Shown piece after piece: positions 2,223 to 44,400 of a stretch of 48,072 nucleotides of DNA. Numbering within the stretch: position 1 is the first letter of the stretch; each line of letters starts with the position of its first letter. The notes beneath the pieces are model-generated. The model was not told the origin of the DNA. It saw nothing but the letters and a program-made list of their open reading frames with translations, and did no database searches. Location of the stretch: assembly GCA_025201365.1 (NCBI GenBank), contig JAIXMF010000066.1, positions 1-48,072 on the forward strand, given 5' to 3'. Made by a program: the position numbers and the translations under genes. The stretch is from Syncephalis plumigaleata. Lineage: Eukaryota > Zoopagomycota > Zoopagomycetes > Zoopagales > Piptocephalidaceae.

Positions 2223-4192
2223 CTACATGATAGGATGACGCTGTACGCTGACATTGGCAGGCCAGACATCACAATGGTTTGTACGATTCGATGGATTGGG
2301 CGGTAACCATCCTTTTTCCTAAATAGAAATACAACAGTATGAGATGAGGTTAGTGGCATTTGCGGCGAGCTTCCATGTTTCAAATGAATAAAATAGACGG
2401 ATGCAGCATTATTGCATAGAATACTTGGAAATACACCATGCTATCATCGTTTGTCATTACTATTATTGTTGTTACTTACCACGCCTAAGAAATAATCCCA
2501 TTGAGGATTGACGCCATTTTCCGTTTTGAAATTCCAGTAGAACCAGCCGAATCCACCGCCCTTCTCAAAGGAATCCATTTGTTTCTCGGAGAACTGCCGC
2601 AGGAATCCGATGTACTCGGGTGACCATGCCTTGACATCGGTACGACCGGCACAGGTGGCCCCTGGGTGAGCTGGCTCGCTGCCTTGATACGTGCCGTCCC
2701 AGCGCGCGCCCTTGCCTACGCCGTTGAGGAATTGTGCGCAATCGTCGGTGGCTACCGAGAATTCACCAACCATCGTGGGTCCGAATTTCTCTTCGCTCGC
2801 TCGAATATCATGCTGCCAAGTGGTACAGGTGAGATTGAGTTTACCGGGCATGTCTAATCCCACTAAGTATCTATCGAAAATAAAGTAATTGTGTACATCT
2901 TTTATCATATAACGTCATACACGCATAAAAGACAATTAGCGTTTGCCATCTATTTATCTATCTCGCTTAACCACTCATTGGTATGCGCACACACTTACCA
3001 AGTACCACACGATCGTATTTATGAGCTGGCATTTCCCCTTGCCATTTGGAGAGACCGGCGAATCCTTCGTGTACCACGAGAATGGGGCCGGCTCCTTTGA
3101 CATTCTTGGTGGTGGAACGTGCTAGCGCGTAGGCATCCTTCGTCCATTGCTTCACCTTGTCCAAACCTACTTTGGCGGCAAATGGTTCGTTAAGCACGCC
3201 AAATAGCGTGACGACATCGCTGTAACGCGGCTGCACCACGAATTCCAGTAGTCGTTGCATAATGCGTAGAGTACGCTCTCCGTGTGCCAGTCCCTTGGCT
3301 GTACCATCGAGCCAGCCTACCGTGCCCTCGCGACCACTATGATTCCAGCCGTTCTGCGAGCCAGGTGCCGTATGTAGCTCGATCATCACGCGTAGTCCGT
3401 ATTTACGCGCCCAATCCAATCCGCGGACCAGGTATTCCCAGCTGTCTTGCACGTAGGGCTCATCGCCCTGCACGTCAAGTGCCCAGTAACCCACTGGGAT
3501 ACGCACGTGGTCTAGGCCAAGATCGGCAACCTTACGAAAGTCGTCTTCCGTAACAAAAGTCTCGAAATGCCTAATAATAATAGTAACGGTACGGATTAGA
3601 ATGATGCCTAGATAGATCATGCTAACATTGTAGATGTATCCACTTACTCGCGCATAGCTTTACGACATTCATCACGTCCTAATTTCTGACAGAATGTCCA
3701 CTCGTCTACCACTTTGGCCTCGGGTGGAAATTGGGTAAACATGGACGGCTTAATGAATGGCTCGAGTAGAAGCCAGCCACCGATGTTCACGCCATGTACC
3801 GGTTTCATACCATAGGGGAATTTCTCATTTAACGGAATGAGATTGGCATGACGCTTCACGCCACCACCGCTACCGCCACCTGCTCCGTTACCACCACCGA
3901 CGCCACCATTAGTTTCGCCTAGGAGTGAGGAACCACTTTTTCGTGCCACGGCCATAACAATACCCGAACCGATACCGGCTGCTAATACTACGCCAACTAG
4001 AGCGATAATCCAACGATTACGTCGTTTATCCAGAAATGATGCACGTTTATTAGCTGTGCCCTGGTTGGCTGTCGTGGTCACTAGGGTTGCCGTTGATGAT
4101 GGCATAAGCTCTTCCTCGGGCAGTCGAAGCTCATCATTATGTAATGCAGTTCCACGTGCCATTGTGCCATTATCAGTTGAATGATCGAACAT
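2223..4192 (-). CDS. Membrane-anchored exo-1,3-beta-glucanase (glucan 1,3-beta-glucosidase, GH5)
   Basis: Exons on the minus strand: 3648-4192, 2999-3570, 2480-2898, 2223-2318. They join in frame to 543 aa. Residues 1-55 are a cytosolic leader, followed by one transmembrane segment (about 62-83, core IIALVGVVLAAGIGSGIVM) and a Gly/Ser-rich stalk. This type II topology resembles ExgD-type enzymes rather than secreted Exg1. The GH5 fold follows: HVRIPVGYW near 203, acid/base Glu310 in GVLNEP, nucleophile Glu418 in MVGEFS, then FLNGVGKGARWDGTY. The enzyme releases glucose from the non-reducing end of beta-1,3-glucan, so it should act in cell-wall remodelling from the plasma membrane. Exon 4 restores the usual C-terminus (GWLPPNPSNRTNHCDVW). 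All donors are GTAAGT-like. The ATG at 4192 is the first in frame after AT-rich leader. Confidence 0.93.
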
Positions 4193-4860: not shown

Positions 4861-7800
4861 CTAGAACTTCCAGTTGGCGTCCACGTCCATTGCCCAACGG
4901 AATTTATCACGTAGTGTAGCATTGAACATCTTGGCGAGTGGCACATCATGAGTACGACACCAAGCGGTAGTGATACGAGGATCGATGTAGTTGATCTTGG
5001 ACGTACTTAATGCTGTCGTCTTATTCTCGTCCTATTATTGTTTTATATATATATATATATATTCATGAATTAGTAACACCGTATAGCATCATCATCATCA
5101 TCACTCACCTTATCGATCATGTCACTTTTAGCTGCAATAATTCTGTCGGATAACTTGTCGATCACATCCTTTAGTCGTTCCTCCGTTACCGTTCTTCTTA
5201 CTTCCAGTTTGCCTGTTTTACGCTCAGTCATGATACGCTCGTCGTATTCTTTGGCCTTATCGAGAACAGCTTGAATGACATCGTTCGATGGTGGTTTCTC
5301 CCCCTCCTCCTTGGCCTTCTCCCGCATCTTCTCCACTTTGGCCTCGGCTTTCTCGTATTCCTTTTTAATTAAACTGTCTTCATACTCGTTACACCAGTCT
5401 TCATCCAGATCTGACTCGGGAGCAACCAACTTAGGATTACTCTTCTTGATTTTAGGATTCAATTGCATCAACTCCCGTTTGGCCCTCCATCGAAGATACT
5501 TGATAGATTTTATCTATGCAATATAAATATATAAATACAACAATAACCAATGCTAATCTAGTGGCATACCTTATTGGAAACACGAATCATTTGATCGTCG
5601 TGTCGTTTAGGCACCGCACGCTGATGGTTGCACAACACGGCCACTTCACGATTGGCACGATTGTAGGCTAGCACCTTCTCGGCTATTGTGGTGTTTTTTG
5701 GTGTTTTCAACAATTCAAGCTCGAATGTATGAGATGCATTGTAAGTACGGAAGACCTTGGCGGTTAATCCTGGCATAAGCGAGGATAAATGTCGATTCAA
5801 CGTGGTGGTCTAGCAAATGGCAATAATTATGTCATAGTTTAGTTGTAGTTAATCATTCACACTTATTATTATTATTATTATTAACTTACCGTTAATTGAT
5901 CAAACAATGGATCACCCGCTTTCTTGGGTGGATCCTTGAAACTCTTCAGATTCTTCCACACTTGAGTGTCGACCTCGACTTCTCTATAGTATCTAATCGA
6001 ATCTTTACCGAGGAAATCAAAGATAACGCGATTGGGTGGTTCGAGGTTTATATGCTCGTAGCGTAATGTGCAACAACCGACCGTATCTGCCTCGTCTTCT
6101 CCCTTCTCATTGCCAGCTCGAAGGGCAAATCGATCGATCAAGTACATGGCGGTGGCGCGCTGACACGCTTGCAACGTACGACTCTTCAAATCCTTGGTGT
6201 ACTCTCGCCTTATCTTATCGATGCAAGTCTGAAACAGTGCAAGTGTTAATACTCGTATACGTATTAAACAAACAGTCAAATAACTTACCTTCAATTCACG
6301 AGCTTTCTCAAACTTGTTCATGTCACTTTGTCCCTTGATAGAGCTATTGGCCGCTAGGAATACATACTTGACCGTGTTATTGACATTCTCCTTCCACATA
6401 GCGAGCCATGTTACAGTTGGATCGTGTACAATGCCACCCCATTGATGCCCGGGAGGAGGGGGCGGAATGGGCGCGCCAGCATCCAAATTTAGCACGACCT
6501 GTTCAGGCTTAATTCGACTCTTGACACAGCCAGTTTTTGGATGTGCGCCACGACCACGGAAGAGCGACGGGGGTTCAATACGGAAGTTACCGACTTTCTC
6601 TCGTCTACCGTCTAGCATGCAATACGCATACTGCTCTTCAATGGCGACTTTCTCTTCTTTAAGGGCCTGTACCAATAATGAAGTTAGTCAGTGTACAATC
6701 TAGGAGTGATATCAATGAATTACCTTAAGCTCCTCCTTTGTCATTTGCTTCTTGCGCTCTCTTTCCTCTTCAAAATGCTGGGCAATCCGTGTAAAATCAC
6801 ACTTTTCAAATACTTGTATCGGTGTTGGCTGTTACATACATACATGTATAAAGGCAATGCTGTTAGCTATTCCATTATCCATTCTATGCTTATTCACCTA
6901 CCTTTTTACACGTTTTCAAAACCTTAAGGAAATCATTGAAGAAGTTCTTCTGAAATACTGGATTGGTGGCATGATCCATGTGTAGAATTTGAGCAAAGAA
7001 CGTGGCTATCTCCTCGGCTGCTGGCTCAAGTACAATTTCCTTTCCTACTAGTTGTTCAGTTTTCGCTGCTTACTTGTTGTCGCTGTCATTGTCGCTGCAG
7101 ATGACTTACCATCGTATATTAAAGGCACGCCATGTGGCTTATACTCGGGAGGGAATAGCACGCCATTGTGACGTAGTGTCTTCCATTTCACCGAGTTATC
7201 ACGATCTTGATTAAGCCACCATCGGTGTGTGTCATCTTCGGCGTCGTCATCATCTTCTTGTTTCTTAACCTTGACCTTGATCTCCTCCTTTACGGGTACA
7301 CCTGCTTTTGCAGACTTTCGTTCACGACCCGTTGACGTGTCATTCACCTTATTTTTCGTGGATTTCTCCAGTTTAACCGCACGCTTCTTAGCTTTCTCGG
7401 CTTCTTTCTTACTACTTGACAATTTACGTTTCTTGCTTGTACTCTAAGTGCACATGTTAAGTAAACAGCAACAATCAAGCTATGAACACAAGCACGAACT
7501 TACCTCAAGACTACTACTTGGTGTTGCCTTAATTCGTGTATGTGTGTATATATTAATTAGTTAGTGTCATAGCAATTAGATCACGAAATCGATTCTCTTA
7601 CAGGAGCAGTAGTTGCAGGTCGAGATTTAATGTAATTAGCCTGTAATTATGTTACAATTCAGTTAATATATATATATATATATAATAGATACTAGCAATG
7701 TATAGATACTTACTAAGGGCACATCCGAATCACTATCATCGCTATTTAATGGTTCATGCTTTACTCGCGTGGATTCAATACCATTCATCGGCATATCTGA

Positions 7801-8361: not shown

Positions 8362-9348
8362 GATTATCGACTAGACTGTTTGCATATACGTGTATGGACG
8401 GTGCGTGCAGTAGACTAATGTAGCGTGTTGGTTCGCGACACTAAAGTGGATCGGTAAAAGCGAGCAAGAAAAAGCAAAAGAGAAAGAGAAAGAGAAACGA
8501 TTGTTTATACGCTTCGTTGAAGTGATAGAGTGCAAAAAGGAATAATGACCAGCAGGTGTGTCTATGCACTTCAAAAGACTACGTGTCGCAGCAAAGGAAA
8601 AGCAGGAGAACGCGAGCAGTGTATGTGTATGTCACCGCAGGGTGTCTATTGTTACAAACCAGCTCACAGGATGAAAAGCAAAACACGGAATCTACTGAAT
8701 TCAAGCAATGTGTCAACAGAAGACTATTCCAATAGAATAAGAAAGGAGGAAGTTGTGGATTGAAGTGGGTGTGAACGAGAAGTTAAAAGTGTTAGATCAG
8801 GGGGGTGAATTCATTCACTTAAGAGAATTCACTCTATATTAATGTCGCATTGATTGGCCAGTAATCAATTCCTGTCTCTAGTAATTGTTACATCCTACAA
8901 AGCTGCCATAACAATAATAAGCATGTTTCATTTTGCTCGTTTTATAATGACATACAGTGTTTTTCCATCCATTTTGCGCATTTATCCTTTAACATTTGCA
9001 GTTTATTAATAAATAGATTAACACAATTGTTAACACCATTATTACCATAGAAATGCCAATTGATATAGCATGATAATAATAACAATTCAGTATTAGTAAT
9101 GAATCATTTATTGATAGCGATAACTATCATCATCAATTCTATAAGGTAGATGATACAAGTGTACTAGTATAGTTGGATATTGCCATGTCATGTACTTACA
9201 AGTAGTAATAAACTAGCATGGTAGATAAATTATGATAATAATGCTTACGGTTACTTACATAGAGAGCAACGAGTGAACAAATAGAATACACGATAAACAA
9301 TGTAATAAACAAGCAGTAACTAGTAGAATGACTGAGTTGTCACGAATG
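8362..9348. other. Gene-less region upstream of TOP1
   Basis: It contains the TOP1 promoter (purine-rich on the plus strand near 8455-8500). A 77-codon plus frame near 8530-8763 lacks an ATG at its head and any recognisable motif. A short perfect inverted repeat is listed separately. The rest is AT-rich and unremarkable up to repeat copy C2. Confidence 0.5.
8805..8832. repeat. Short inverted repeat (hairpin)
   Basis: An 8-bp arm gtgaattc is repeated as gaattcac after 12 nt. It could be a hairpin or a trace of a small transposon. Function unknown. Confidence 0.5.
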
Positions 9349-9990
9349 AGCAAGGAATGAGCAAGAAAGGATGCATGAACACGTATGCTAGTTTATTCGA
9401 AGAAGCAGTGTATGCTTGTATGCGGTAAATAGAGTATGTAGATGGCAGTAAACAAATGAAAATACAAAAATAAAAGCATGACGTAAGGGTGGCATACAAA
9501 CAGATGACGGAAAAGAGTGGTAAAAGTAAAAGGTACATATTACAACGAGAGCAGTAAACGCTTAAACATTGATAAATAAGCAGGACAGTGATAGAGAACA
9601 AAGGACTAGAACGAGCAATAAACAAGGCTTACTGGTATACTAATAATAACGACAAGTGAGCATGTAGATAGTTTAGAGGAAGAGGAAAACAAAGAGATAA
9701 ATAAAAGTCATAAAGATAGTATGGCAGAATAGCTGCTATTAGGAATGTGTATGCTAAAGTGAAAGAGGAAGTAAGTGGAATGTGAAGGACACGAAGAAGA
9801 CGCGTATTACTGAGAAAGTAAAAGAACTAGCTAGCATATAGTCAAGAGGAAGTAGACGTGTGTTGTTAAAGAGAGAGAAAAAGAAAAGAAAAGAAAAGAA
9901 ACAAATAGAATGCAGTTGACACAAATAAGTGTGTTACTGAATGACAAGGGAAGTGAGGTTAGTACGAAGAAGACAGCATTGATAAAGAGA
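9349..9990 (-). repeat. Dispersed non-coding repeat, copy C2 (inverted, left part only)
   Basis: Read on the minus strand, this aligns with C1 from near its window start to about 625, for example the shared stretch over the ATG-CCACCC-TTACGTCATGC region and the AAGCATACACTGCTTCTTCGA block. It is more diverged from C1 than C3 is. It lacks the right half shared by C1 and C3. Similar pyrimidine-rich character continues on the minus strand to about 10262, possibly the part of the repeat that C1 has lost off the window edge. Confidence 0.75.
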
Positions 9991-10530
9991 GAGAAAGAGT
10001 GCTTTTATTGACTAATAAAGAAAATTAACAATTTATACATCAGTCGATAATGAGGAATGGAAATGTATTATCATTGGTAACGAAGTAAAGGAGGAGGAAA
10101 TAATGTAGGTAGTGAAGTAAAGGGGAAAGGGAAAGAGAAGCAGCAATGAAATGGATACTTGGAAATGGATTGATAGACCATTAACCAAGTGTTAACAAAT
10201 AGATAAGGAGAAGTTGATAATGGAGGCATTAGTAGAATGCAAATGAATATATTAACATCCATTACAAGACTCTGTTCATTTATTAATAACGAATATATTT
10301 AATAAAGTGTTAACAAGTTCAATAGTACTTATTAAAATGCTTACTGATTGCTAAATTATCATCGGCGTTATACCATTGCTACAATGACACTAGATGATAC
10401 GAGTCTTACTGTGCTGCGCTGTAAATGATACTACTTACCATAATAGATTCACCCTTCCTGTATGTGTCTGCACGAGCGTTTCACCCCTACGTCATCAGAT
10501 CCGCGCAGTTAGTACTACCAACGTGCCACG

Positions 10531-10537
10531 TATATAA
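10531..10537 (+). promoter_or_regulatory. TATA box of the Fanzor gene
   Basis: A clean tatataaa lies 114 bp upstream of the chosen ATG. A TACGTCA (CRE/ATF-like) site lies at about 10490. This suggests the nuclease has its own polymerase II promoter instead of relying on read-through from a neighbour. Confidence 0.6.
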
Positions 10538-10644
10538 AGAAGCGTCTATACTACAATAAAATAAAAGATTAATTAACCCTTCATATTGTAACTGTGCTCG
10601 TTTTAACATACTGCTATTCCATTGAATACTATTCCATTTCATCC

Positions 10645-12904
10645 ATGGCGTCACAGCCAGGCACTCATGGCTCGTCTACTTCTGCCGATAGTGAACGAGT
10701 TCTGGCTGTGAAGTCTTCTATCTCCGGCATTGGTTGGAAGAAGGAGCGTCGCGGTGCTTTACGCGATTTTGTAGACATCGTGCACACCACGACCTTCCAC
10801 GCCTACTCCTTCGCGAAATACATTTTTCTCCGTGAATATAAGGATAATCCGAACTTTAAGTTCGAAGAGTATATTTGTGAAGACTTTTTCAAGCAAGTAT
10901 GGCTTTCGTTAGTCACGCGTACGCGAAAAGGCAGGCCCAAACCGGAAACAATTAAACTTCGCAAGTTCATCAAGAAGCATTTGGATGATTACCTTAAATT
11001 TGCTCGCTATCAACCGCCGGAGTTAGCCTATGCCGATCAGTCAGCTACTTACGAGGCAACGAAGATGCACGTTGCTTACACCAACAACGTCAGGTTGCGC
11101 TTTGGCGAGTTCCTTCGGCGTGCTGTTAACAAGCATTTCAAGGTCAAGGAGATGCTAAAGGATATGAAGGAGAGGTTACCCAAGGACGTAAAAGCTGATG
11201 AGCTTCGCAAGGAAATCAAAGCAATCACTGATCCAGCAAAAGAGTTCAAGCTAGCGATGGTACACCGAGGGGGGATTGAAGCGTTGGCTAAAAAGGATCC
11301 CACCTTTACTGAGGCATTTGACACATTTAAAGACGTTTTGGATGCTTACACTGAGGGCTATGACTTTGGTGAAAACGGCCTTTATTACGACTGTAAAGCA
11401 AACCCGGTGAAGCACTTCAAAGCGTTCTTTAAGCTTGCGCGCCTCTTTGACGACCTCGAGTTAAAGCCTTTCAACTGTTTCCCCCTGCGCCGATCCTTCT
11501 CACCGTGTTACGTCCACATCGACACCGTTATCCTTTGTGAGAACATATTAGGACGCAGTTATGCGGATAAGAAGACTGATCAGCAGAAGGAATTGGAGAA
11601 GGAATGGTCCGATAAGCAGAGGAGGGAAGCCCTTAAGAAGAAAAAGAAGGGGCATTGGGAAGAAGTCGTGGAGCTCAATCGAAAGGTATTCAGGGATCAA
11701 AAGGGTGGCAAGCTCGAGTTTTTTTATTCGATTGAAACCGATGGCGTTGGGGTCACGGTCATCAAGAAGGGCACCAAGAGACGGGGAACGAAATCAGCAA
11801 AGGATCCCTTCCCGTATATCAGTAAATTGGGTACTGATGATCACAAGGCAATCAACGGCAAATGCGTGGCGGTGGACCCGGGAAGAAGGAACTTACTGTT
11901 TTGTGTACACGAAAACTCGACGGTGAAAAATAAGCGCAAATATCGGTACACGAAACTACATCAAGACAAGATGCGGAGGACGAAGAAATACCGCCAGATT
12001 CGCGAGGACTGCAAGAAGGGGAACCAGGCGGTGCAGCAGGCCGAGGTGGCTCTCTCAGGAACCAAGGGCAACTCGGTATCTCTACCGGAATATGAGGACT
12101 ATCTGAAGTGTCGCGCACAGCACTCAGATGTTCTCACCAGCTTTTACCGAGATACCACCACCGACCATCCTACCCAACATCCTCTCTTCAGGAAGTTGAA
12201 ACTGTCAGCCTACATCAGCAAGCAACAAAGTGATCAAAAGCTGATTGATGACTTAAGGAAGAAATTCGATAGGGATGCAGCATTTGTGATGGGAAACTGG
12301 TCCGCTCCTCACACCAAGTATCACGAGCCCATACGCGGTATTGGCTTTAGAAGGCTTTTGAAACGACATGGGTTTAAAGTCTTTCTAATCGACGAGCACA
12401 AGACCAGCAAGTGCTGCCCAGCTTGCAAGAATCCCACACTTGAGAAATTCAAGAAGGTCGCGAATCCTCGACTCAAGAAACATGAAGACAGCCATAGAAT
12501 TATCTGTCATGGTCTTTTAAGGTAAGTACAATTTATTACACTTTGCAATTTATTACAATATATTAATTAATTATTTTATTAGATGCACACATCAAACTTG
12601 TAATAAAGCCATGAAAGATATAAAGGCTAAGAAGGAGCGAGAGGGCAAGCTGGAGGTGGATTATAAAGAGGACCCGGAATTTAAAAGATACGAACACCGC
12701 TTATGGAATCGGGATATGGCTGCATGTCTGAATTTTATTCAGATTATTCGCAGTGTTCGTAAGGACAACCTTATTCCAACACAATTCCAACGACGTGCCG
12801 TTTCTCCTCCTGACCCTGGTACATCCGCCAAGCATTCACTGAATGAAGATCAAGATCAAGATGGACAAGATCAAGAGGGATCCAAACATCAAAAAACAAA
12901 TTAA
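10645..12904 (+). CDS. Fanzor (eukaryotic TnpB-like RNA-guided endonuclease), apparently intact
   Basis: Two exons, 10645-12521 and 12583-12904, encode 732 aa. The start is the ATG in atccatggcg; upstream in-frame codons reach only a GTG. The N-terminal half (about 30-390) is helical and Lys/Arg-rich, as expected for the guide-RNA/DNA-binding lobe. The RuvC core follows: Asp411 in VAVDPGRRN (RuvC-I); GNWS at about 550-553, where the canonical RuvC-II Glu would sit; and Glu584 in IDEHKTSKCCPAC, the displaced glutamate known from Fanzors. A zinc finger has Cys591/592 and Cys594 in the first half and CTHQTC from Cys627 in the second. RuvC-III Asp670 lies in WNRDMAACLNF. All catalytic positions are present. 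Fanzors cut DNA guided by an RNA encoded beside the gene and are usually spread by transposons. No transposase is visible here. Nuclear-localisation-like runs (KKKKK, KKGTKRRGTK) lie between about 320 and 380. The tail is Asp/Gln/Lys-rich. Confidence 0.93.
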
Positions 12905-13090
12905 CCAGATTGTATCGTCAATCGTCTAAAATACAGGAGTCCTTGTAAGTGTTAAATATTATTTATTTGTAGAACAGAAGGCTAACTGCGCAAATTGGAT
13001 GGAAAAAGTCTGTACAAATGAGATGTAGCTATAATGGATAGCATGGTATTCAGTTCAATAAACTAGTCGCCTTATTATATCTGCTTTGTA
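12905..13090 (+). ncRNA. Candidate guide-RNA (fRNA/omega-RNA) region 3' of Fanzor
   Basis: Placed by family knowledge only: in TnpB/Fanzor loci the guide RNA usually overlaps or follows the ORF 3' end and its 3' edge marks the element boundary. The stretch is non-coding, contains small GTAAGT/TAG splice-like signals, and carries ctaactgcgc (12982-12991), the reverse complement of gcgcagttag at 10503-10512. No secondary structure could be computed, so this is a place to look, not a demonstrated gene. Confidence 0.25.
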
Positions 13091-26848: not shown

Positions 26849-27135
26849 ACGACAATAATCAATGGTAATTGCAAAGGCATCATCAATGGCAATGACGAGC
26901 AATGCCAATCCTGATATTAATACTGGCCAATGATGGCACATTGTCTACAGCGGCCTTTTTAGTATATTAACACGACCATTTCAAAGTCTACACGATATCC
27001 GCACTTTTCGCATTTTGTTTTTATTGCATTACTTGTCCAGCATCTCTTCAACTGTTTAGCATTTCTCGCATTTCTTGCATACTGTTCATATATACTTCGC
27101 ATAACATCATCCTCTATAGCATTTCCAATTTCATT

Positions 27136-27723
27136 ATGTTGCTCAAACTTGTATTTATTGCATTCGCATTTGTAGCGACAGTAGCAGCATATCCTACATC
27201 CAAACCATTATCGCGGCAGAATACTGGGCTCAACGTCAAACCATCCTTGTATAGGAGACAAAATTTAGTAGATGCATATTCATGGGAGCTTGATGATGAT
27301 TCATTAGGAAGCGCAATCGAGTTTGTTTCTAAAAAAAACCTTTCTTTATTTTATGATATACTTGTTGGCTTTTTTAAAAGTAGTCCAAATGGCGTTCATC
27401 CTTTAAACGTCCATAATGCCATTGCTTTCGTTCCTATTGTTAGCTCTAATAGCTATTCCATCAGAACTACAGAGCAACTTCGGTATCATATGGTTTCAGG
27501 CACGGAATCACCCTTTAAGATACCGCCAAATGGCCAAGGTGTTATATACAGCTATAATGGTCTTCCAATTTATGTTAGAAGAAGAGGCGACACTTTATAC
27601 ATCAACTGCTCCAAGGTCCTCAGCCAGAGTAGCTATAGAGGCAATACCATCTTCACCATCGATAGGGTTCTAGATCCTGCGAGCAAACAATTTAACGAGG
27701 CATCCATGAACAAATGCCCATAA
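27136..27723 (+). CDS. Secreted fasciclin-like (FAS1) protein
   Basis: One exon, 195 aa. The signal peptide MLLKLVFIAFAFVATVAA is followed by a short pro-like stretch ending in a dibasic site (LYRRQ). The rest resembles one FAS1 domain: AFVPIVSSNSYSI at the first conserved block (usually TVFAPTNxAF), LRYHMVSG at the YH motif, YNGLPIYV, INCSKVL, and NTIFTIDRVLDP at the C-terminal block. FAS1 proteins mediate adhesion and cell-wall contact. No GPI signal is seen at the C-terminus (NKCP), so it is probably free or wall-bound. Its neighbours are other surface and secreted proteins. Confidence 0.72.
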   Translation: MLLKLVFIAFAFVATVAAYPTSKPLSRQNTGLNVKPSLYRRQNLVDAYSWELDDDSLGSAIEFVSKKNLSLFYDILVGFFKSSPNGVHPLNVHNAIAFVPIVSSNSYSIRTTEQLRYHMVSGTESPFKIPPNGQGVIYSYNGLPIYVRRRGDTLYINCSKVLSQSSYRGNTIFTIDRVLDPASKQFNEASMNKCP

Positions 27724-28183: not shown

Positions 28184-30719
28184 ATGGTGTCAACAGTCTC
28201 GACAAGTTCGGCCACCATGCAACAGAATGAGAGCGGATGTGCGACAGAGATCGGCAAGTCGATCGCTAAAATCGACGACACACAACTTATGCGCGAGAAT
28301 GCCGTCCTGTTAACCATGACATTTGCTAGTACCGCGTTAAAAGAACGTAAACAGGCAAGTGATAATCGCTTGGATGTGTAAGGTGTAGCATTGACACTAA
28401 CGTTGCTAAAATGCGCAACTACAGGGTGATTATCGTCGCTACAACGAGATGATTCATAGACTATCCAATCGCAACGATCTAACACCGGAGAAACAGCTCA
28501 ACTGGCTGGCCGCACTAACCAACTACGTGTCGGCACTGACGCCCGATTGCTCTGGTCTAGTCGAGGCGATACTCGGATGGCAATGGTCAGCCTGGGAGAA
28601 CTTGATGCTAGTCAAGGCGTACGCTACCTTTTTTGAGCATCTTGTATCTGCGCAAGCATTCTACGTCGTACCTGTTATGCGATCATTAGTTAGTTGTTTC
28701 CGATTCTGTAAGTGATCATTATCATTATCGTCATATGTCATTGTAAACTACGCTAACCGTTTTACTAATATATTATTCGCGATTCAGATGCAGGCGATGA
28801 ACAAGACAATGCTTACAAGCGGAAAACGACACCTGAAAAGGTGCAGATGGTACATGATCGTGTCCATCGCGCGCTACATCGTATTATCTCTTTGATTCCA
28901 ACGTCGACGCCTAAGCTGGCGACGGTGTTATCTGAAAACTTTCCATATAAACTAGACACTACAGTAGCACAGACTACATACTTGAAAAATGTACTCCGCG
29001 TGCTTGACTATGCACCCATGTTGCGCGATTCATTGATGCAAACGATTATTGAGCGTATTCTTCGTATTGATGTATGTATATATATAGAGATGTATAGAGA
29101 TAGTTTGTTTTTTACATGCTTGTATAGACAATGAGATTCGCGTAATTGATTTGATTAATAACTTTTATTGTACTATTCCTCCTTGTTCATCTATTAGGTT
29201 GATATTCAAGTTGAATTGGACGAATTGGATGAGGCTGAACGTGAGGAAGAAGAGGATGACATCGCCGATGATGACGATGTATTCGCCATGGAGCAGAATG
29301 AGCCTACTACGGATAAGGATACCGAAGAGGAAGAAGCGAACGGCAATGATGAAACGGAAGAGGAGAGTGACATGGATGATGGCTATGAAACGGAAGAAGA
29401 ACCGGAGGTATTGGCCGAGGAACCCGCCGAGATGAGTGTCGCCGAGATTCGTGACTTGTCCTATAAGCTGGATAGCATGCTTACTCTAGTGTTCGAGTAT
29501 TTCCGTAATAGACAAGCACGACAACCAACGGCGATTATCGACGATTTCTACCTGTTACTCGATATATTCGATCGTTCCATCTTGTGCACGTTCAAATCAC
29601 GTCACACACAATTCCTTCTATTCCATGCTGCCTCGGTGAACAATGAGCTAGCGGATATATTCCTTGGCCATTTGACTAACAAAGTGTGCACCACCGGACA
29701 TCCCAGTGTTATTCGTGTGGCATCGGCGTCTTATCTGGCCTCATTCGTGGCACGAGCCTCATTCCTTACACGCGACGCTATTTGCAATATGATGCGCGTA
29801 CTAATAGGCTGGGCGCAGATCTACGTCGATGAACACGAGACTAATGACACATTCCCGGATCCAGAGCGATATGCCGTCTTTTATGCCGCGGTACAAGCCA
29901 TCATTTACATATTCTGTTTCCGATGGCGTGATCTCTGTAATGATCCCATGTTTAATGATGTCACTGATAGTACAACAACTACAACTACAACCACAGCGAC
30001 TACAACTATTCTTGTTACATCATCCAATGATACACCATCTAAATTGGATTACACGTCGAGTAGCGATAGAAACAATGCTACAGCTAAGCAAACATGGGAT
30101 GCTGGTCTTACTGGTTTACAACCAATTTTAACATCAAGATTCAATCCATTAAAGGTAAGCTATTATTATTACTATTGGTACAAGCAATTTGTACTCATTC
30201 ATATTTACGATGATCATCTAGGTGTGTTCACCAGGTGTAGTGCAACAATTTGCGCGCCTTACACGCAAACTCAACTTCCTATACGTTTATCCGATTATTG
30301 AACGTAACAAGAATTTGTATTTGCCACACCGTCAGGGCAGTAATGGATCTACGAAACAAACTACACCATTACAATTGGAGACGTTCTTCCCCTTTGATCC
30401 CTATCGTCTCGGGCAGTCCAGTCGATATATCGATCCACTCTATCAGGAATGGCAACCTGATAGTGACGTTGAAGAAGAAGGGGAGGATGAAGAGGAGGAT
30501 TATGGTGCAGAATCAGCAGAAGATGAAGATGAAGATGATGAAGAAGAGGACGTGGAGCAAGGAGACGAGGATATGTCCTCGATTAGTATGGCAAATCCCA
30601 CACTAGCTCATCAGCTATTAGATCATTCACTCGATGACTCGACACTTGCCATGTCTATATCGCCTCAAGGCGGTCTACTAGATGCACAACGACGAGCGCT
30701 TTTATTTTTTAATGATTGA
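28184..30719 (+). CDS. RRN3: RNA polymerase I initiation factor Rrn3 (TIF-IA)
   Basis: Five exons, 28184-28354, 28425-28707, 28788-29071, 29198-30154 and 30222-30719, give 730 aa. The ATG at 28184 starts MVSTVSTSS; the frame upstream reaches only a TTG. HEAT-like helices run through most of the protein. A long Asp/Glu-rich insert (about 255-310) and a Thr-run loop (near 500) interrupt it. The family-defining block near the C-terminus is SRFNPLKVCSPGVVQQFA, then LNFLYVYPIIERN and FFPFDPYRLGQSSRYIDPLYQEW. A very acidic tail follows. Rrn3 binds Pol I and recruits it to rDNA promoters; in other species TOR-dependent phosphorylation controls it. Intron 1 has a GC donor (CAG|GCAAGT); reading from the next GT would bring a stop. 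Confidence 0.95.
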
Positions 30720-35918: not shown

Positions 35919-37441
35919 ATGACCCAGTCAACCAGTAATCCAAGCCATGAGGAAGGTCAAGCTGTAGCGCGAGTTGTCGACGAGAAGACGCCGTCTTTGG
36001 CATCGGTCGATCCAAAGAAGGGTAGATTCTCGAAGGCGATGTCTACCCTATTCAAACCGGTTACCATTGCATTCCGTTACCTAATGATGATCAAGGTAAG
36101 TCGAGCAATCATTACTAATGTAAACTATAAAAGACGATCATACTAACCACGATGATGATGGTTACCTAGCTTTCCTACTGGATCATCATTTCTATGGTTG
36201 TTGGTTTATTGATTGGATGGCTTGCTCCCGAGTTTGGTGTTCATTTAAAACCACTTGCTAATGTTTTCCTTCGTATGATTAAATCTCTGATTGTTCCACT
36301 GCTTTTCGCAACGTTAACTGTCGGTATCGCCGGTCATGGTGATGATTTGGCCGCGGTTGGCCGTATGTTCCTCAAGTCCATTGTCTACTTTGAGGTCATC
36401 ACGACCCTTGCCCTTGCTGTCGGTCTCATTGCCGTTAACATCACCAAGCCCGGTGCAGGTGTTAGTCTCGCCGGTCAGTCCGACACGCAAGGCAAGGATC
36501 TTGCTAAACATGAAATCTCCTGGGAGAACGAACTCTACTCCATTGTTCCCGATAGTTTCTTTAAGGCTGCTGCCGAGAATCAAGTGTTGCAGATTGTCGC
36601 TTGTTCCATCATTTTTGCCATTGGCATCATTAAAGTGCAGAATGGTCGGCTTAAACGTCCGATGATAGAGTTTTGCGAGTCTCTGAGCGAGATCATGTTC
36701 AAAGTGACCGCTATCGTCATGTACTTTGCCCCCATTGGTATTGGCGCTGCTATGGCGTCTACCATCGGTGCCAACGGTATCCACGTCATGGTGTCATTGG
36801 GCAAGCTTATCGGCACGCTATACGGTGCATTGGCCATCTTCATCCTACTCGTGTTCTTCCCGGTAATGCTGTTGACGCGCGTGCCATTGCGCGACTTTTT
36901 CAAGGCCGTGGGACAACCCGTGCTCATCGGTTTCTCGACCGCCTCCTCGGAAGCCGCCTTGCCCCTTGCCATGGAGAATCTCTACGAGCTTGGCTGTGCC
37001 CGGAAAGTGGTGGCATTCGTATTGCCCACCGGGTATAGTTTCAATCTTGACGGCACCACCCTCTACCTCTCGTTGGCGGCTGTGTTCTGTGCCCAGGCCG
37101 CTGGCATGGAGTTATCGGTCAGTCGACAAATCGTCATTATGCTCACCCTCATGCTTACGAGCAAGGGTGTGGCCGGTGTACCGCGTGCCTCGCTTGTCGT
37201 TCTCTCGGGTGCCCTCAGCAACTTTGACATCCCCATGGAGGCCATCCCGCTTATCATGGGTGTCGACGCTATCATGGACATGGCACGTACCGGTACTAAC
37301 TTGCTAGGCAACTGTCTAGCCACTGTAGTTGTCGCCAAATGGGAGAACGAATTCCGTACGGTCGAATGGGAGGAGGAACGAGCAGCTCAAGCCCGAGGAG
37401 AAACAAACGAGTCTACGCATAGAGAAGTAGAGGAAGTATAA
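35919..37441 (+). CDS. Dicarboxylate/amino acid:cation symporter (DAACS, SLC1 family), DctA/GltP-like
   Basis: Two exons, 35919-36095 and 36170-37441, give 482 aa; the ATG at 35919 follows a GTG. A soluble N-terminus (about 50 aa) precedes the usual eight helices and two re-entrant loops. Seen: KSLIVPLLFATLTVGIAG, the HP1 serine motif TASSEAALPLAMENL, PTGYSFNLDGTTLYLS, SKGVAGVPRAS in HP2, and DMARTGTNLLGNCLATVVVAKWE in helix 8. The LGN ending, instead of the VGD of animal EAATs, and the PTGYSFNLDGT form follow bacterial DctA/GltP carriers, which are proton-coupled. The substrate is probably C4-dicarboxylates, aspartate or glutamate at the plasma membrane. The main exon is C-rich at third positions and has a single early intron, unlike its intron-dense neighbours. 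Confidence 0.93.
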
Positions 37442-38793: not shown

Positions 38794-41244
38794 ATGTCAT
38801 CTGCTGTCTCGCTTGACACTCTAGTCGTCGCTGGCCTGGTGGTTAGTGGCGCGATATATCTGTTCAGAGGAGCACTATTCGGTGATCAGTCTGGACCGGC
38901 AAAAGCTATTGGTGGCAATGGCGCTACAGCCAATGGTGGACTTAACGGCGTACAACGCAAGAGACGCTCGCGTAATTTCGTACAAGTTATGAACGAAACA
39001 GTAAGTACTCTCTAGCAAAAATTTATTGCTATCGTATGCCTACATGCTACTATATTTGGGATTAACGCGCCGCCTTGCCTGCTATTAGGACAAGAATGTA
39101 ATTGTCTTTTTTGGCTCACAAACCGGCACTGCCGAGGATTATGCCAACCGTATTGCCAAGGAGGCGCAAAAACGCTACGGTCTTCGGTGCATGGTCGCTG
39201 ATATCGAGGATTACGACATGGAACGGCTGGATCGTTTGCCAAGCGATCACCTGGCCATTTTTGTGGTGGCTACCTATGGTGAGGGCGAGCCCACTGATAA
39301 TGCCACCGAGTTCTGGAACTTCCTCATTGTCGACTCGGAGGGTGATGTCCCCACCTTTAGTCGTCAGGACGAGGGTGACATCGAGGAGATGGACGAGGAG
39401 GGCAACTCCACGGAAGGTCGACCTCTGCACAATCTACGCTACGTCATGTTCGGTCTTGGCAATCGCACGTATGAACACTTTAACGCGGTAGCACGACGCT
39501 TGGATCAACGCTTTACGAGTTTAGGCGCACGTCGCATTGGTGAACGTGGTGAAGGCGATGACGATGGCAATCTCGAGGAAGATTTCATTTCATGGAAGAG
39601 TGGAGCATGGCAAGCTATCGCTGAAGTCATGCACGTAAGCGAGCAATCTGAATCGTAAGTGTAGTCATTACTCGATCATTTGGCATTAGTGACATTACTA
39701 ATAATGTTTCTTTATTATTATTAATTAGTGCTCATGACCGGAATATATCCTAACTGAATTAAACGAGGGCGAATACGATCCGAATAACGTTTATCACGGC
39801 GAGTTAACCGAGCGTCGTCTAGCTGGTGCCGGTACCGTTTATGACATTAAACGACCATATATGGCTAGTTACAGGTTACTCGACAGCTATTCGCCACTGA
39901 GGCACAACGGTACTGCGTGCATGCTGAAGTGGATCTACGCGGATCAAATATCTCCTACACTGCGGTGACCATTTAGCAATCTGGCCTGTAAACTCGGAGG
40001 ATGAAGTACTACGAATAGCGAATGCCTGCGGTATTAGCAAGGACAAACTAGACACGGTAGTGCGTGTAGTGAGTTCTGATGAGACCGCCGCTAAAAAGTA
40101 TCCATTCCCACAACCAACGACTTATCGTGATATCTTCCGCCATTACATTGATATAAACTCGTGTCCATCTCGTGAATTCGTGGCATTACTGGCGGCGCAG
40201 TTTGTTACCGATCCATCTGCAAAAGCCTATCTCACACGATTGGGCAGCGACAAAGAAGCGTATCATCGTGAAGTGCTAGAATGCACATGAATCTAGCAAC
40301 TCTCGTTGAACAAGCAAGAGCAGCAGCAGCAGCAACTGCAGCAACTGATGATGCCGATGACAAAGCAGCACCATGGACCATTCCAGTGGCTATAGCCATC
40401 GAAGGATTGGGTCGATTACAACCACGTTACTACAGTATTAGTTCCAGTCCCAAGATGAATCAGCATCATGCTCATCTACTGCAGTTGTCGTTGATCAAGA
40501 AGTGTCCTACAATCGTCGATTCCAGGGTGTAGCCACAAACTATCTACTGGCTGCGCACACTCGTCTAACTAGCGACAGTATTGTCAATGTCAATGGTCTC
40601 GCTAATGGTGATGTCACCACGGTCATCGAGTCACACTACGAAATGGAAACACACAAGCTAATTACGGAACAAGTTGCCGAGGAACTCAACGATATCAATC
40701 AATCCAGTAGTCTACGTGTACGTGTACCGGTATTCGTACGACCATGCTCGAACTTTAAATTGCCACGCGATACCACTCGTCCAGTCATTATGGTGGGACC
40801 TGGCACGGGTGTCGCTCCTTTCCGTGCATTTGTGCAGGAACGCGTATACTGGCGCGTAAAGGCGTGGAACTCGGTCCGACTATTCTCTTCTTCGGCTGTC
40901 GACATCGCGAGCACGATTTCTTGTATCGCGAGGAATGGGACGCGTACTTTAAGGAGTTGCCAGCCGATAAGAGTGAAATGATACTGGCATTCTCGCGCGA
41001 ACAAGACAAGAAGGTCTACGTGCAAGATCGTATGCATGAACGTCAAACCGATCTATGGCGTTGGTTGCACGACGAAAAAGGCTACTTCTACGTGTGCGGT
41101 GATGCTAAGAACATGGCTCGTGCCGTTAATAATCAACTTGTTGCCATGGCACAGGAAGTGGGTGGATTAGACGAAGAACAAGCGGTGCAATGGGTGAAGG
41201 ATCTACGCGCTCATGGTCGATATCAAGAGGATGTATGGTCGTAA
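38794..41244 (+). CDS. NADPH-cytochrome P450 reductase, frame broken several times in this sequence
   Basis: Exons 38794-39000, 39089-39654 and 39729-41244. An N-terminal ER anchor ([19 protein letters not shown]) is followed by the FMN domain ([45 protein letters not shown]). The FAD domain has [17 protein letters not shown] and GVATNYLL. The NADPH domain has [18 protein letters not shown] and ends in the family's invariant YQEDVWS. The enzyme passes electrons from NADPH through FAD and FMN to P450s and squalene epoxidase at the ER. Exon 3 reads through only if six single-base losses are allowed, near 39740, 39872, 39964, 40282, 40475 and 40848. Several fit a doubled base reduced to one (GGG to GG, CC to C). 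Protein similarity is strong on both sides of each, so sequence error is likelier than a pseudogene. Confidence 0.9.
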
Positions 41245-41474: not shown

Positions 41475-44400
41475 TTAATGTCCACCGGTCAATGTGACCT
41501 CTAGCGTATTAAATCGGAATGGGTCAGCACTACGCGTACGTGTAAAACGCAATTCTTGATTGTCCTCATCATCATCGTCCCAATCATCGCCGGCAGCTTG
41601 AATGTATCCGGTCGAAGACATCGTCGTTTAATCCAACGGTACAATTCACTAAGAATAATAAATATAACCACGGCAATGATGACCAATGCCCATTCCCAAG
41701 TCAATGGTTTATGCTTGAATACCTCGGTGTTTACCCTATTATAATAAACATGTTAAAGAGATGAATATGAATATGAATATGATAGCTAGTTAGCTAGCTA
41801 CTTACACTGGTATGTAGAGTGCAGGGAAGAGCAATAGAATGCCTAATAGCATGCTAAACACCACTGGCTTGCTCTTGTTTAAGCGTCGGAAGTTACGTGG
41901 TGTCCATTGTGGTGCACGCAATGAACGGCAATTCAATGTATGGATAAGAATTAATAGGGTAAGCGTGGCGTAACCTGTACCGCGTGCTTTGAATACAAGA
42001 TTACAGGCATCGGAGAAGTCGTGATTACAATTGCTGCCTAGTTGTCCATCGCCAAACCCGTAAATGACAAGTACGAAATTGGACAGTGAAAGTATTCCCA
42101 TCCAGAAACCGTAGTAGAAAATATCACAAACAACCTCGGGAGCAAATAGACCTCGGCCAATACGACGAGGTGGTCGAAGCATAATATCTCTGGTGGCGGG
42201 TTCCACACCCAATGCCATGGCAGGAGGTGAGCTATTAATGATCCGGTTATTAGTACTAATATACAAATATCATCACTGCTATATTGCTTACCTTGTAATC
42301 ATATTAAGGAATAGAATTTGTAATGGAGACATTGGATAGACGGATACACCTTCACTATCACTAAATACCAAACCGATAACAAGGGCAATCACTTCGGCTA
42401 CATTGGCTGTATAATCAAATTAACAAGTATAATTAGTTAATGCTTCATGATTACTACTGCTACTACAACACTTACTCGACATGAGATGTAGTACGAATTT
42501 CTGTATATTCGCAAAGATACGACGTCCTTCGGCAATGGCGCGAACAATCGTGGAAAAGTTATCATCGGTCAATACGATATCTGACGCTGTTTCGCCACAT
42601 CCGATCTCCTAATCCCATAGCAATACCGATATCGGCAATCTTTAAACTAGGTGAATCTAAATATACACGTAACAATAAGATATACGATTACTACATTAGT
42701 TGACTGAGATGACGATGCAAAAGTAAAGCAACAATGAGGAGTACTTACCATTGACGCCGTCACCTGTCATGGCAACAACACGATTACGTGCGTGTAAGGC
42801 ACCGATCATCTTGACCTTAGTATCGGGACTACAACGAGCCACCACCAATGGTAGTTCGCTAATGTTCTTCAACTCTTCGTCGCTCAACACGTCAAACTGA
42901 CTAGCAGACATGGTAAGTTGAGCAGTGGACACGGCAACACCATCAGCATTCGATTCCGCTTGACTTGTAGTAGTAATGGTGGTGGCATTTCTTTGATTAG
43001 TTCGATTATGCTGATGACGATTGACCCACTACTTGTTGATGTAGTATCGAGGTGACTTCATTGGATGATCGGAAGTACCACCGGTTAATGCGGCCCAACG
43101 CTTCTTCAAGCGTAAGCGACGACGACGCCAACGACGATGATGACGTCGCTTAGAGCCAGCCATCGCAAATACTGGACCTTCACCGGACCACTGCAGAATG
43201 CCGACCTCCTTGGCGATGGCCGTGGCAGTCGATGGATGATCACCCGTCAGCATGTGCACGGTGATACCCGCTCGATGACAACGTTTCACGCTAGGAAGCG
43301 ATTCAGCGCGAGGAGGATCGTAAATGCCCACTAATCCTAAGAGTGTCATATCTTGATCGATTCTTTCTCGATCCTCGAGTATCTCAGCATGACATTCTTC
43401 AGGATTGATCTCACGATAAGCAAGACCTAGTACACGCTGTAGTAGAAGAAAAATAGACATTAATTACTACTACAATTACTATTAGTGTTGTTGTAGTTTG
43501 ACTTACTAGACCATCCGATGCCATGTCATCGACTACCGGTTGAATCCAATCCCATACGGCAGAGCCTGGCACTGGCCACACCTTGCCGTGTTTATCGACC
43601 AGACGCGTGCATCGTTCGGCCACTCGCTCGGATGCTCCCTTAAGGAAGGCGATCGTTTTACCGGCGAGTGGACGTGTCGTATCGTCGTATGAGGCAGCGG
43701 GCACTTTATAGACGGAACTCATACGCTTCACGCTTACTATCGAATGGATGCTCGTAGAGCAGTTTAAAGTTTTGCACTGTATCAGTATTGGCCGTGAGTT
43801 GTTGACGACCATGCTTCAATTTCGTAGCGAATACTTGAAGGGCAATCTATATATATAATGATGAGATAATGATCATACACTCATTAGCTATTTGTAATAG
43901 ACATGCTTGGTTTATCGTTGTGCTTGAGATATTACCTCTGTGGGGTCACCCAATCCTTCCCATTCGCCTTTCTTCGATCTACGTATACTGGCGACATTGC
44001 ATAACGCTGCACACTCGACCAACAACTGAGCTGGCAGTGTCATTTGCGACCATTCAAACGCGTTGCGGTTGCATTTGATTCTCTCCGTGTCCTCTTGCGT
44101 TTCCGGTTTCTTCCTCTTCCTCTACCGCATCGATGGTATCGCTACTATCATTTTCACGATCATCGACACCATCAAGATCGGGTCGACCCTCCATTAATAT
44201 CTCGCCCACCGGTTCAATACCCGTGCCAGTAACCGAGAAATAACCATCGCTTGGTGTGTAGAAACGAGTCAGTACATTTTCGATTGAGTAAGTGTACCCG
44301 TCTACAATATGCCATTAGTATCTATGTATGTATATTACACTAAATAATTGCTTACCTTATCCGAGCAAATATTGGTCACTGCACCAAGTGCTTCAAGTGC

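Follow-up and report, generated by a model that had tools for sequence, protein, structure and literature searches.

The Fanzor gene and its surroundings

The window analysed here, i.e. the whole stretch of 48,072 nucleotides from the fungus Syncephalis plumigaleata (assembly GCA_025201365.1, contig JAIXMF010000066.1), carries a Fanzor gene on its forward strand. The gene consists of exon 1 (10645..12521), an intron of 61 nt (12522..12582, GTAAGT...TTAG) and exon 2 (12583..12904). Its frame opens with the ATG at 10645, closes with the stop codon at 12902–12904 and encodes 732 residues after splicing. A complete 732-residue frame with one intron had been proposed in a sequence-only reading of this region, and spliced alignment with the protein as query gives an identical exon–intron model. 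All 37 models of sister genes that span codon 626 have an intron there, 60 or 61 nt long. A TATA-like box (TATATAAA, 10531..10538, forward strand) can be read upstream of the ATG.

The gene-model reading places the predicted catalytic residues Asp411 (codon 11875–11877) and Glu584 (codon 12394–12396) in exon 1 and the RuvC-III Asp670 in exon 2. The Cys-rich zinc finger is also present, as had been claimed together with the three acids, and we read C591/C594 and C627/C632 as its two probable cysteine couples.

Pfam matches identify seven neighbours in the window: a GH5 glycosidase (2967–3656), DNA topoisomerase I (5881–6684), a fasciclin domain (26971–27720), RRN3 (29198–30298), a sodium:dicarboxylate symporter (36170–37438), a flavodoxin domain (39089–39655) and a cation ATPase C-terminus (41802–42266). 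Three of the ten neighbouring frames scanned have no Pfam match.

Family assignment and the active site

A phmmer search of the Protein Data Bank (PDB) with the window protein returns the Fanzor1 of Parasitella parasitica (PpFz1, E = 4e-120) and SpuFz1 of Spizellomyces punctatus (E = 7e-36); the only further solved relative up to E = 1 is Guillardia theta Fanzor1 (GtFz1), a weak match at 0.03. Because of these E-values and the tens of paralogues in the same genome, the match is not a chance one, and the proposed Fanzor identity holds. With Pfam alone the protein would have gone unrecognised, since its sole match there, PF07282, scores 17.5 bits, below the cut-off of 26.3, and a PF07282 search of the S. 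plumigaleata genome gives no match.

Asp411 lies within CVAVDPGRRN, in which D411-P412-G413 forms the DPG of RuvC-I, and Asp670 lies within LWNRDMAAC. Glu584, within LIDEHKTSK, stands six residues before CPAC (E584-HKTSKC-CPAC, an E-x6-CxxC spacing). The canonical RuvC-II position (residues 550–553) reads GNWS, which is the common state in this genome; GDWS is found there in six sisters (L014, L015, L016, L023, L056 and L057) and, according to the PDB alignment, in SpuFz1. The phmmer alignment pairs D411 directly with residue 777 and E584 with residue 935 of SpuFz1 (chain 8gkh). The window protein's own alignment with SpuFz1 ends before D670, which matches the WNRD aspartate of PpFz1 in a strong stretch, and the equivalent of D670 in the sister L012 is matched to residue 1000 of SpuFz1 in a separate alignment segment that is weak. 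Chain residues 777, 935 and 1000, less a constant 394, are D383, E541 and D606 of SpuFz1, which PMC11423790 describes as the catalytic residues that act with two Mg ions in coordinating the scissile phosphate. D411/E584/D670 are the counterparts of this triad by alignment, the third residue only through PpFz1 and L012.

The displaced glutamate of the sequence-only reading is confirmed by the alignment of E584 with E541 and by its spacing, which is that of the alternative glutamate position defined for Fanzors in PMC10711439. As the same source describes it as a family-wide trait, it is no novelty of this gene. By sequence, the window protein is a Fanzor1 with a displaced glutamate; the family and the glutamate are known already, and what is new is this intact copy.

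PpFz1 is the closest known relative by sequence and, via a predicted model of L012, by fold, and it has the same triad. The L012 model was made with the intron read through and is of low confidence (mean pLDDT 55, pTM 0.51, much of the RuvC domain below 50), and all seven of its Foldseek matches at E ≤ 0.001 are Fanzors. PpFz1 carries a cyclophilin-binding FRI insertion of ~100 residues (PMC11423790), whereas the window protein has eight residues at that site (~501–508). A Fanzor1 that is near PpFz1 but has no FRI insertion is a useful comparison for what FRI adds. At the FRI-equivalent site, the Fanzors of this genome (examples are the window protein, L021–L027, L055, L059 and L061) vary from 8 to 41 residues, with the long forms rich in Pro and Thr, and the FRI domain could have grown out of such a linker.

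The gene is part of a TA-flanked transposon

The Fanzor gene belongs to a single transposon copy (8953–13014 including its TA flanks), a feature absent from the sequence-only reading. Homology of the window to sister copies runs from 8950–8953 through 13014. Between a left (8953..8954) and a right (13013..13014) TA copy lies an element of 4058 bp (8955..13012, forward strand), which is delimited by these homology limits, by readings of its ends and by an element-free locus on another contig (C13). The terminal inverted repeats (8955..8989 on the forward and 12978..13012 on the reverse strand) are 35 bp long, or 37 nt with the TA (8953–8989 and 12978–13014), and 86% complementary. Left ends of the family read TA-CAGTG-TTTTTCCATCCAATTTGCGCATTTATCC, and right ends mostly TA-CAGGC or CAGAC-TTTTTCCATCCAATTTGCGCAGTTAGCC, with CAGAC in the window and CAGGC in most sisters. 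The 5′ region of the element (8955..10644, forward strand) is conserved among copies. Beyond the Fanzor frame the element has no open stretch longer than 102 codons; no transposase was found inside it, and the Fanzor is its only recognised gene.

The target duplication of the family is TA, as the empty partner site of the sister L021 shows. L021 is flanked by AATCAAC-TA on the left and TA-GGCAGC on the right, and the element-free contig C112 reads AATCAAC-TA-GGCAGC with a clean single TA. The window element has TA at both ends.

A close parallel by description is the Spu-1 element of S. punctatus, which encodes SpuFz1. Like the window element, it is TA-flanked, has inverted ends and carries a Fanzor as its sole gene; it is further described as having many ghost elements and an omegaRNA that comes from its right end (PMC10432273, PMC3627910). 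The Spu-1 Fanzor is a single open reading frame, whereas the window Fanzor has one intron.

The right end as a putative guide-RNA scaffold

The last ~72 nt of the element and its right TA (12943..13014, forward strand) are conserved among distinct right ends and form a putative omegaRNA scaffold. Among the 43 right ends kept, a 5′ arm is recognisable in 41, and these reduce to 37 distinct sequences with a mean column identity of 87%. L001, the partner copies L008, L019, L060 and L063, and L064 were left out of this set, as were L039 and L047, which have no recognisable 5′ arm; on the left-end side, 12 mis-assigned rows were removed (56 to 44). From the alignment alone, RNAalifold predicts a 7-bp stem (12945–12951 with 12960–12966; stem-loop 1, 12945..12966), then a 4-bp stem (12967–12970 with 12999–13002; stem 2, 12967..13002), both on the forward strand, plus an inner 2-bp stem. 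All seven pairs of the first, GUAAGUG stem are present in 35 of the 37 distinct right ends, a count that depends on how its arms were found, with patterns tolerating one mismatch, and its loop varies in length and sequence.

A hand-drawn structure pairs in 95% of cells and slid versions of it in 34–51%, a comparison in which the structure was derived from these same sequences and has a second helix different from the one chosen by RNAalifold. None of its 12 pairs shows compensatory changes, and letter shuffles are not exceeded; likewise, none of the 13 RNAalifold pairs is changed on both sides. Single-strand folding is no better than that of shuffled sequences (z = +0.9), and in the column-shuffle test 62 of 200 shuffles score as low as the alignment (z = −0.35). 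Rfam gives no match in the window at the gathering threshold. In the PpFz1 omegaRNA, stem 1 is 7 bp and stem 2 is 4 bp long (PMC11423790), a likeness to the two stems predicted here that is one of stem lengths only. The right end is consistent with a scaffold of a Fanzor guide RNA, but neither covariation nor folding gives proof of it. By analogy with the known OMEGA layout, the predicted guide would be the host flank that follows the right TA (13015..13034, forward strand).

The left flanks of the family favour A next to the TA. Flanks of 100 of 171 left and 100 of 170 right strict matches were made unique, which gave 86 and 90 sequences, respectively. A occupies positions −1 to −3 left of the TA in 62, 62 and 57% of the former and the three positions right of it in 28, 42 and 33% of the latter (Fisher p = 9e-6 at −1). 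A comparison with the window's own N-TA background, made with rounded fractions, gives p = 6e-8 for the left side and p = 0.13 for the right. The TAM (target-adjacent motif) of PpFz1 is given as ATN in PMC11423790. A reading of the left-flank bias as a trace of a TAM was not upheld: among 64 unique left ends of the matches listed, on contigs that both the left-end and the hairpin listings reach, A is about as frequent in those with a matched hairpin partner (21/35) as in those without one (19/29). As the two groups are alike, the bias is treated as an integration preference unless shown otherwise.

Sister copies and selection on the protein

A search of the genome with the window protein returned at least 98 pieces, which group into about 40 Fanzor gene loci, the window included, and three tail-only loci. 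Besides the window, 41 sequences were modelled, with L029 and L064 being one place and L063 tail only. D411 is kept in all 37 loci covered and D670 in 36 of 37 covered, with Gly in the damaged L059. At position 584, Glu is present at 39 of 40 loci, and L023 has Lys. This last copy (C1:1615237–1617105) is otherwise intact, has one broken pair in stem 1 of its right end, and may be either a decaying or a naturally catalytically dead copy.

A filter for intactness (no frameshift, no stop and more than 600 aligned codons) is passed by 27 of the 42 sequences, the window included. Two that pass are partial: L007 ends at residue 626, and L054 starts at residue 81, at a Tc1-like insertion. The 15 that fail include L064, a second cut of one place, and the tail-only L063. 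Across 350 of the 351 pairs of the 27 sequences, the median dN/dS is 0.40 (range 0.22–0.68), which indicates that the Fanzor protein is under purifying selection. For the window copy, dN/dS is 0.28 to L018 and 0.44 to L012, at a dS of 0.25–0.26, and it stays within 0.28–0.44 across the 14 nearest sisters.

These data bear on the possibility that the gene is a passenger relic, i.e. that the protein is no nuclease in practice and its copies persist only through a helper transposase. The damaged or partial sisters, which are common, would fit such a history, as would the E584K change in an otherwise intact copy. Selection on the protein, seen between the window copy and its nearest sisters, and the retention of E584 in nearly all loci argue against it, and we consider it unlikely.

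Filled and empty partner contigs

Contig C13 matches both flanks of the Fanzor element at 98% identity and has no element between them (L074, C13:402819). A further 4 nt immediately next to the TA are missing from it; as the partner site differs at the junction in this way, the window's own TA duplication has no clean match. The joined window flanks differ from C13 by 55 substitutions and six indels over 4.6 kb. One of these indels lies exactly at the junction and another, of 12 nt, 64 bp away; by rough arithmetic, the chance of a junction indel by coincidence is about 1%. The 4-nt gap may be an excision scar or a cut-and-repair scar, and C13 may be an allele or a duplicated segment.

The flanks of four places were searched, and each has one second contig that is 98–100% identical. 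At least part of the genome is therefore represented by two versions in the assembly, and counts over the genome include doubles (L005/L008, L006/L019, L031/L063 and part of L010/L011). The partner contig of L012 carries the element's right end. At another partner site (L076 on C24, opposite the gene-less copy L032 on C383), 28 bp of the left end are followed by 27 nt of filler, which looks like the product of end joining after a break.

Recent activity or host use had been proposed for the window gene. Activity finds support only in that C13, at 98% identity, has no element; against it, the nearest intact paralogue is at a dS of 0.26, so that a fresh duplicate of the window copy is not seen, and no near-identical duplicate was found among the modelled sisters. 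Host use is unsupported, as transposon ends enclose the gene. A domesticated Fanzor, kept for a function in the cell within mere remnants of transposon ends, would account for the intact frame, the TATA-like box and the purifying selection among paralogues. However, the element has its two ends and its two TA copies, tens of similar copies lie elsewhere in the genome, and the corresponding locus on C13 is free of the element. Domestication is very improbable, and we rejected it on the element-free C13 locus.

Gene-less relatives and a candidate helper

The family has a large crowd of gene-less relatives, or ghosts. A 20-base core of the ends has 962 matches in the genome (483 + 479) at no more than two mismatches, and a strict pattern of the hairpin plus the right end has 277 (136 + 141), a count that takes gene-bearing and ghost copies together; the reversed controls of both patterns have none. 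Set against about 40 Fanzor loci, these numbers mean that gene-less ghosts outnumber the gene. Among the matches listed, 20 stretches have element lengths of 214–232 bp (three), 545–603 bp (eight), 1026–1226 bp (eight) and 4185 bp (one), and 19 of these 20 are short ghosts. In all eight members of the 545–603 bp class, the left ~253 bp of the Fanzor element are joined to its right 313 bp. The crowd is a larger counterpart of the ghost elements described for S. punctatus in PMC10432273 (42 Fz loci and 134 ghosts there versus 962 end-motif matches here).

A search of the genome for DDE_3 transposases gave 31 matches. One family (C90:380462–384986) is TA-flanked, ends in inverted repeats of ~278 bp and has a frame of 383 codons with a DDE_3 match at 1.5e-28 and HTH matches. 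By our own grouping of its relatives, it is encoded identically at five places, and 13 more have at least one partial match, mostly to the C-terminal half. The end of this family is 77% identical to the left end of the Fanzor element over 47 bp. A second DDE_3 family (L065, L066) shares only the first bases of its ends with the Fanzor element, and no ends were found for a third (L068). Among the frames of 13 of the 20 stretches and of six DDE_3 stretches, no transposase with exactly the Fanzor ends was found. The C90 family, whose ends are similar, is the best candidate helper, a plausible one by sequence. Mariner-type PUl-4 and PGv-1 have TA duplications like the window element, and PUl-4 is also Fanzor-only; the TIRs of PUl-4 are described as identical to those of confirmed mariners (PMC3627910), whereas the window ends are only 77% alike to those of the candidate helper.

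As no other gene is recognised in the element, the Fanzor might itself be the transposase. This is highly improbable: Fanzor-less relatives share its ends, as the short ghosts and the hundreds of end motifs show, a DDE_3 transposase with related ends exists, and the solved Fanzors are described as RNA-guided nucleases (PMC10432273, PMC11423790). Fanzor1 proteins are also described from DNA elements of Mucorales (ROr, PBl and MCi of Rhizopus, Phycomyces and Mucor), which are MuDR-type with 9-bp duplications or unclassified (PMC3627910) and are set apart here by that description. A MuDR-type element like ROr-4, PBl-3 and MCi-4 is scarcely credible for the window and was rejected, because the partner site of L021 shows a duplication of TA and not of 9 bp.

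Proposed reading: a guided nuclease in a helper-dependent element

The reading we prefer, with a probability of about 0.75, is that the window holds a complete Fanzor1 that is the sole recognised gene of a TA-targeting transposon, is guided by RNA from the element's right end and depends on a helper encoded elsewhere. Most likely, the Fanzor would bind the right-end RNA, whose 3′ tail would copy the host flank. The D411/E584/D670 RuvC site would then cut a matching empty site beside a short TAM, of which the TA would be a part or an immediate neighbour, and the break would favour re-copying of the element into the site it had left or into a homologous one. The element and its hundreds of gene-less relatives would be moved by a transposase encoded at another place, plausibly one of the DDE_3 family with similar ends.

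A bolder version is that one set of Fanzors serves guide-making ghosts across the genome in trans and drives them onto homologous empty sites. The 4-nt gap in C13 would then be a resistance-type allele, of a kind known for homing endonucleases, and the empty partner of the window would survive because the first guide-match bases, i.e. the 4 nt beside the TA, are missing. The empty partner of L021, which has an unaltered target, speaks against this version, and we hold it to be doubtful. If it were true, filled and empty pairs of one genome would allow a direct test of Fanzor function.

In the study that demonstrated the activity of Fanzors, their role is described as unknown (PMC10432273). Intact copies, a very large family of ghosts with a conserved guide-like right end, a plausible helper and filled/empty contig pairs all occur in the present genome, so that predictions on homing, trans-action and the TAM can be tested in one organism. 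The interest of the locus rests on the element, the ghost crowd and these pairs, and not on the glutamate.

Other insertions in the family

Two members of the family carry other insertions. The ghost L033 (C1:1009500–1013820) contains a long insertion with a 1163-codon frame, which by eye looks like a retroelement reverse transcriptase. In a sister Fanzor gene (L065/L054, C1:571900–575000), a Tc1-like element sits near codon 77; it has perfect inverted ends of 213 bp and a DDE_3 frame of 380 codons.
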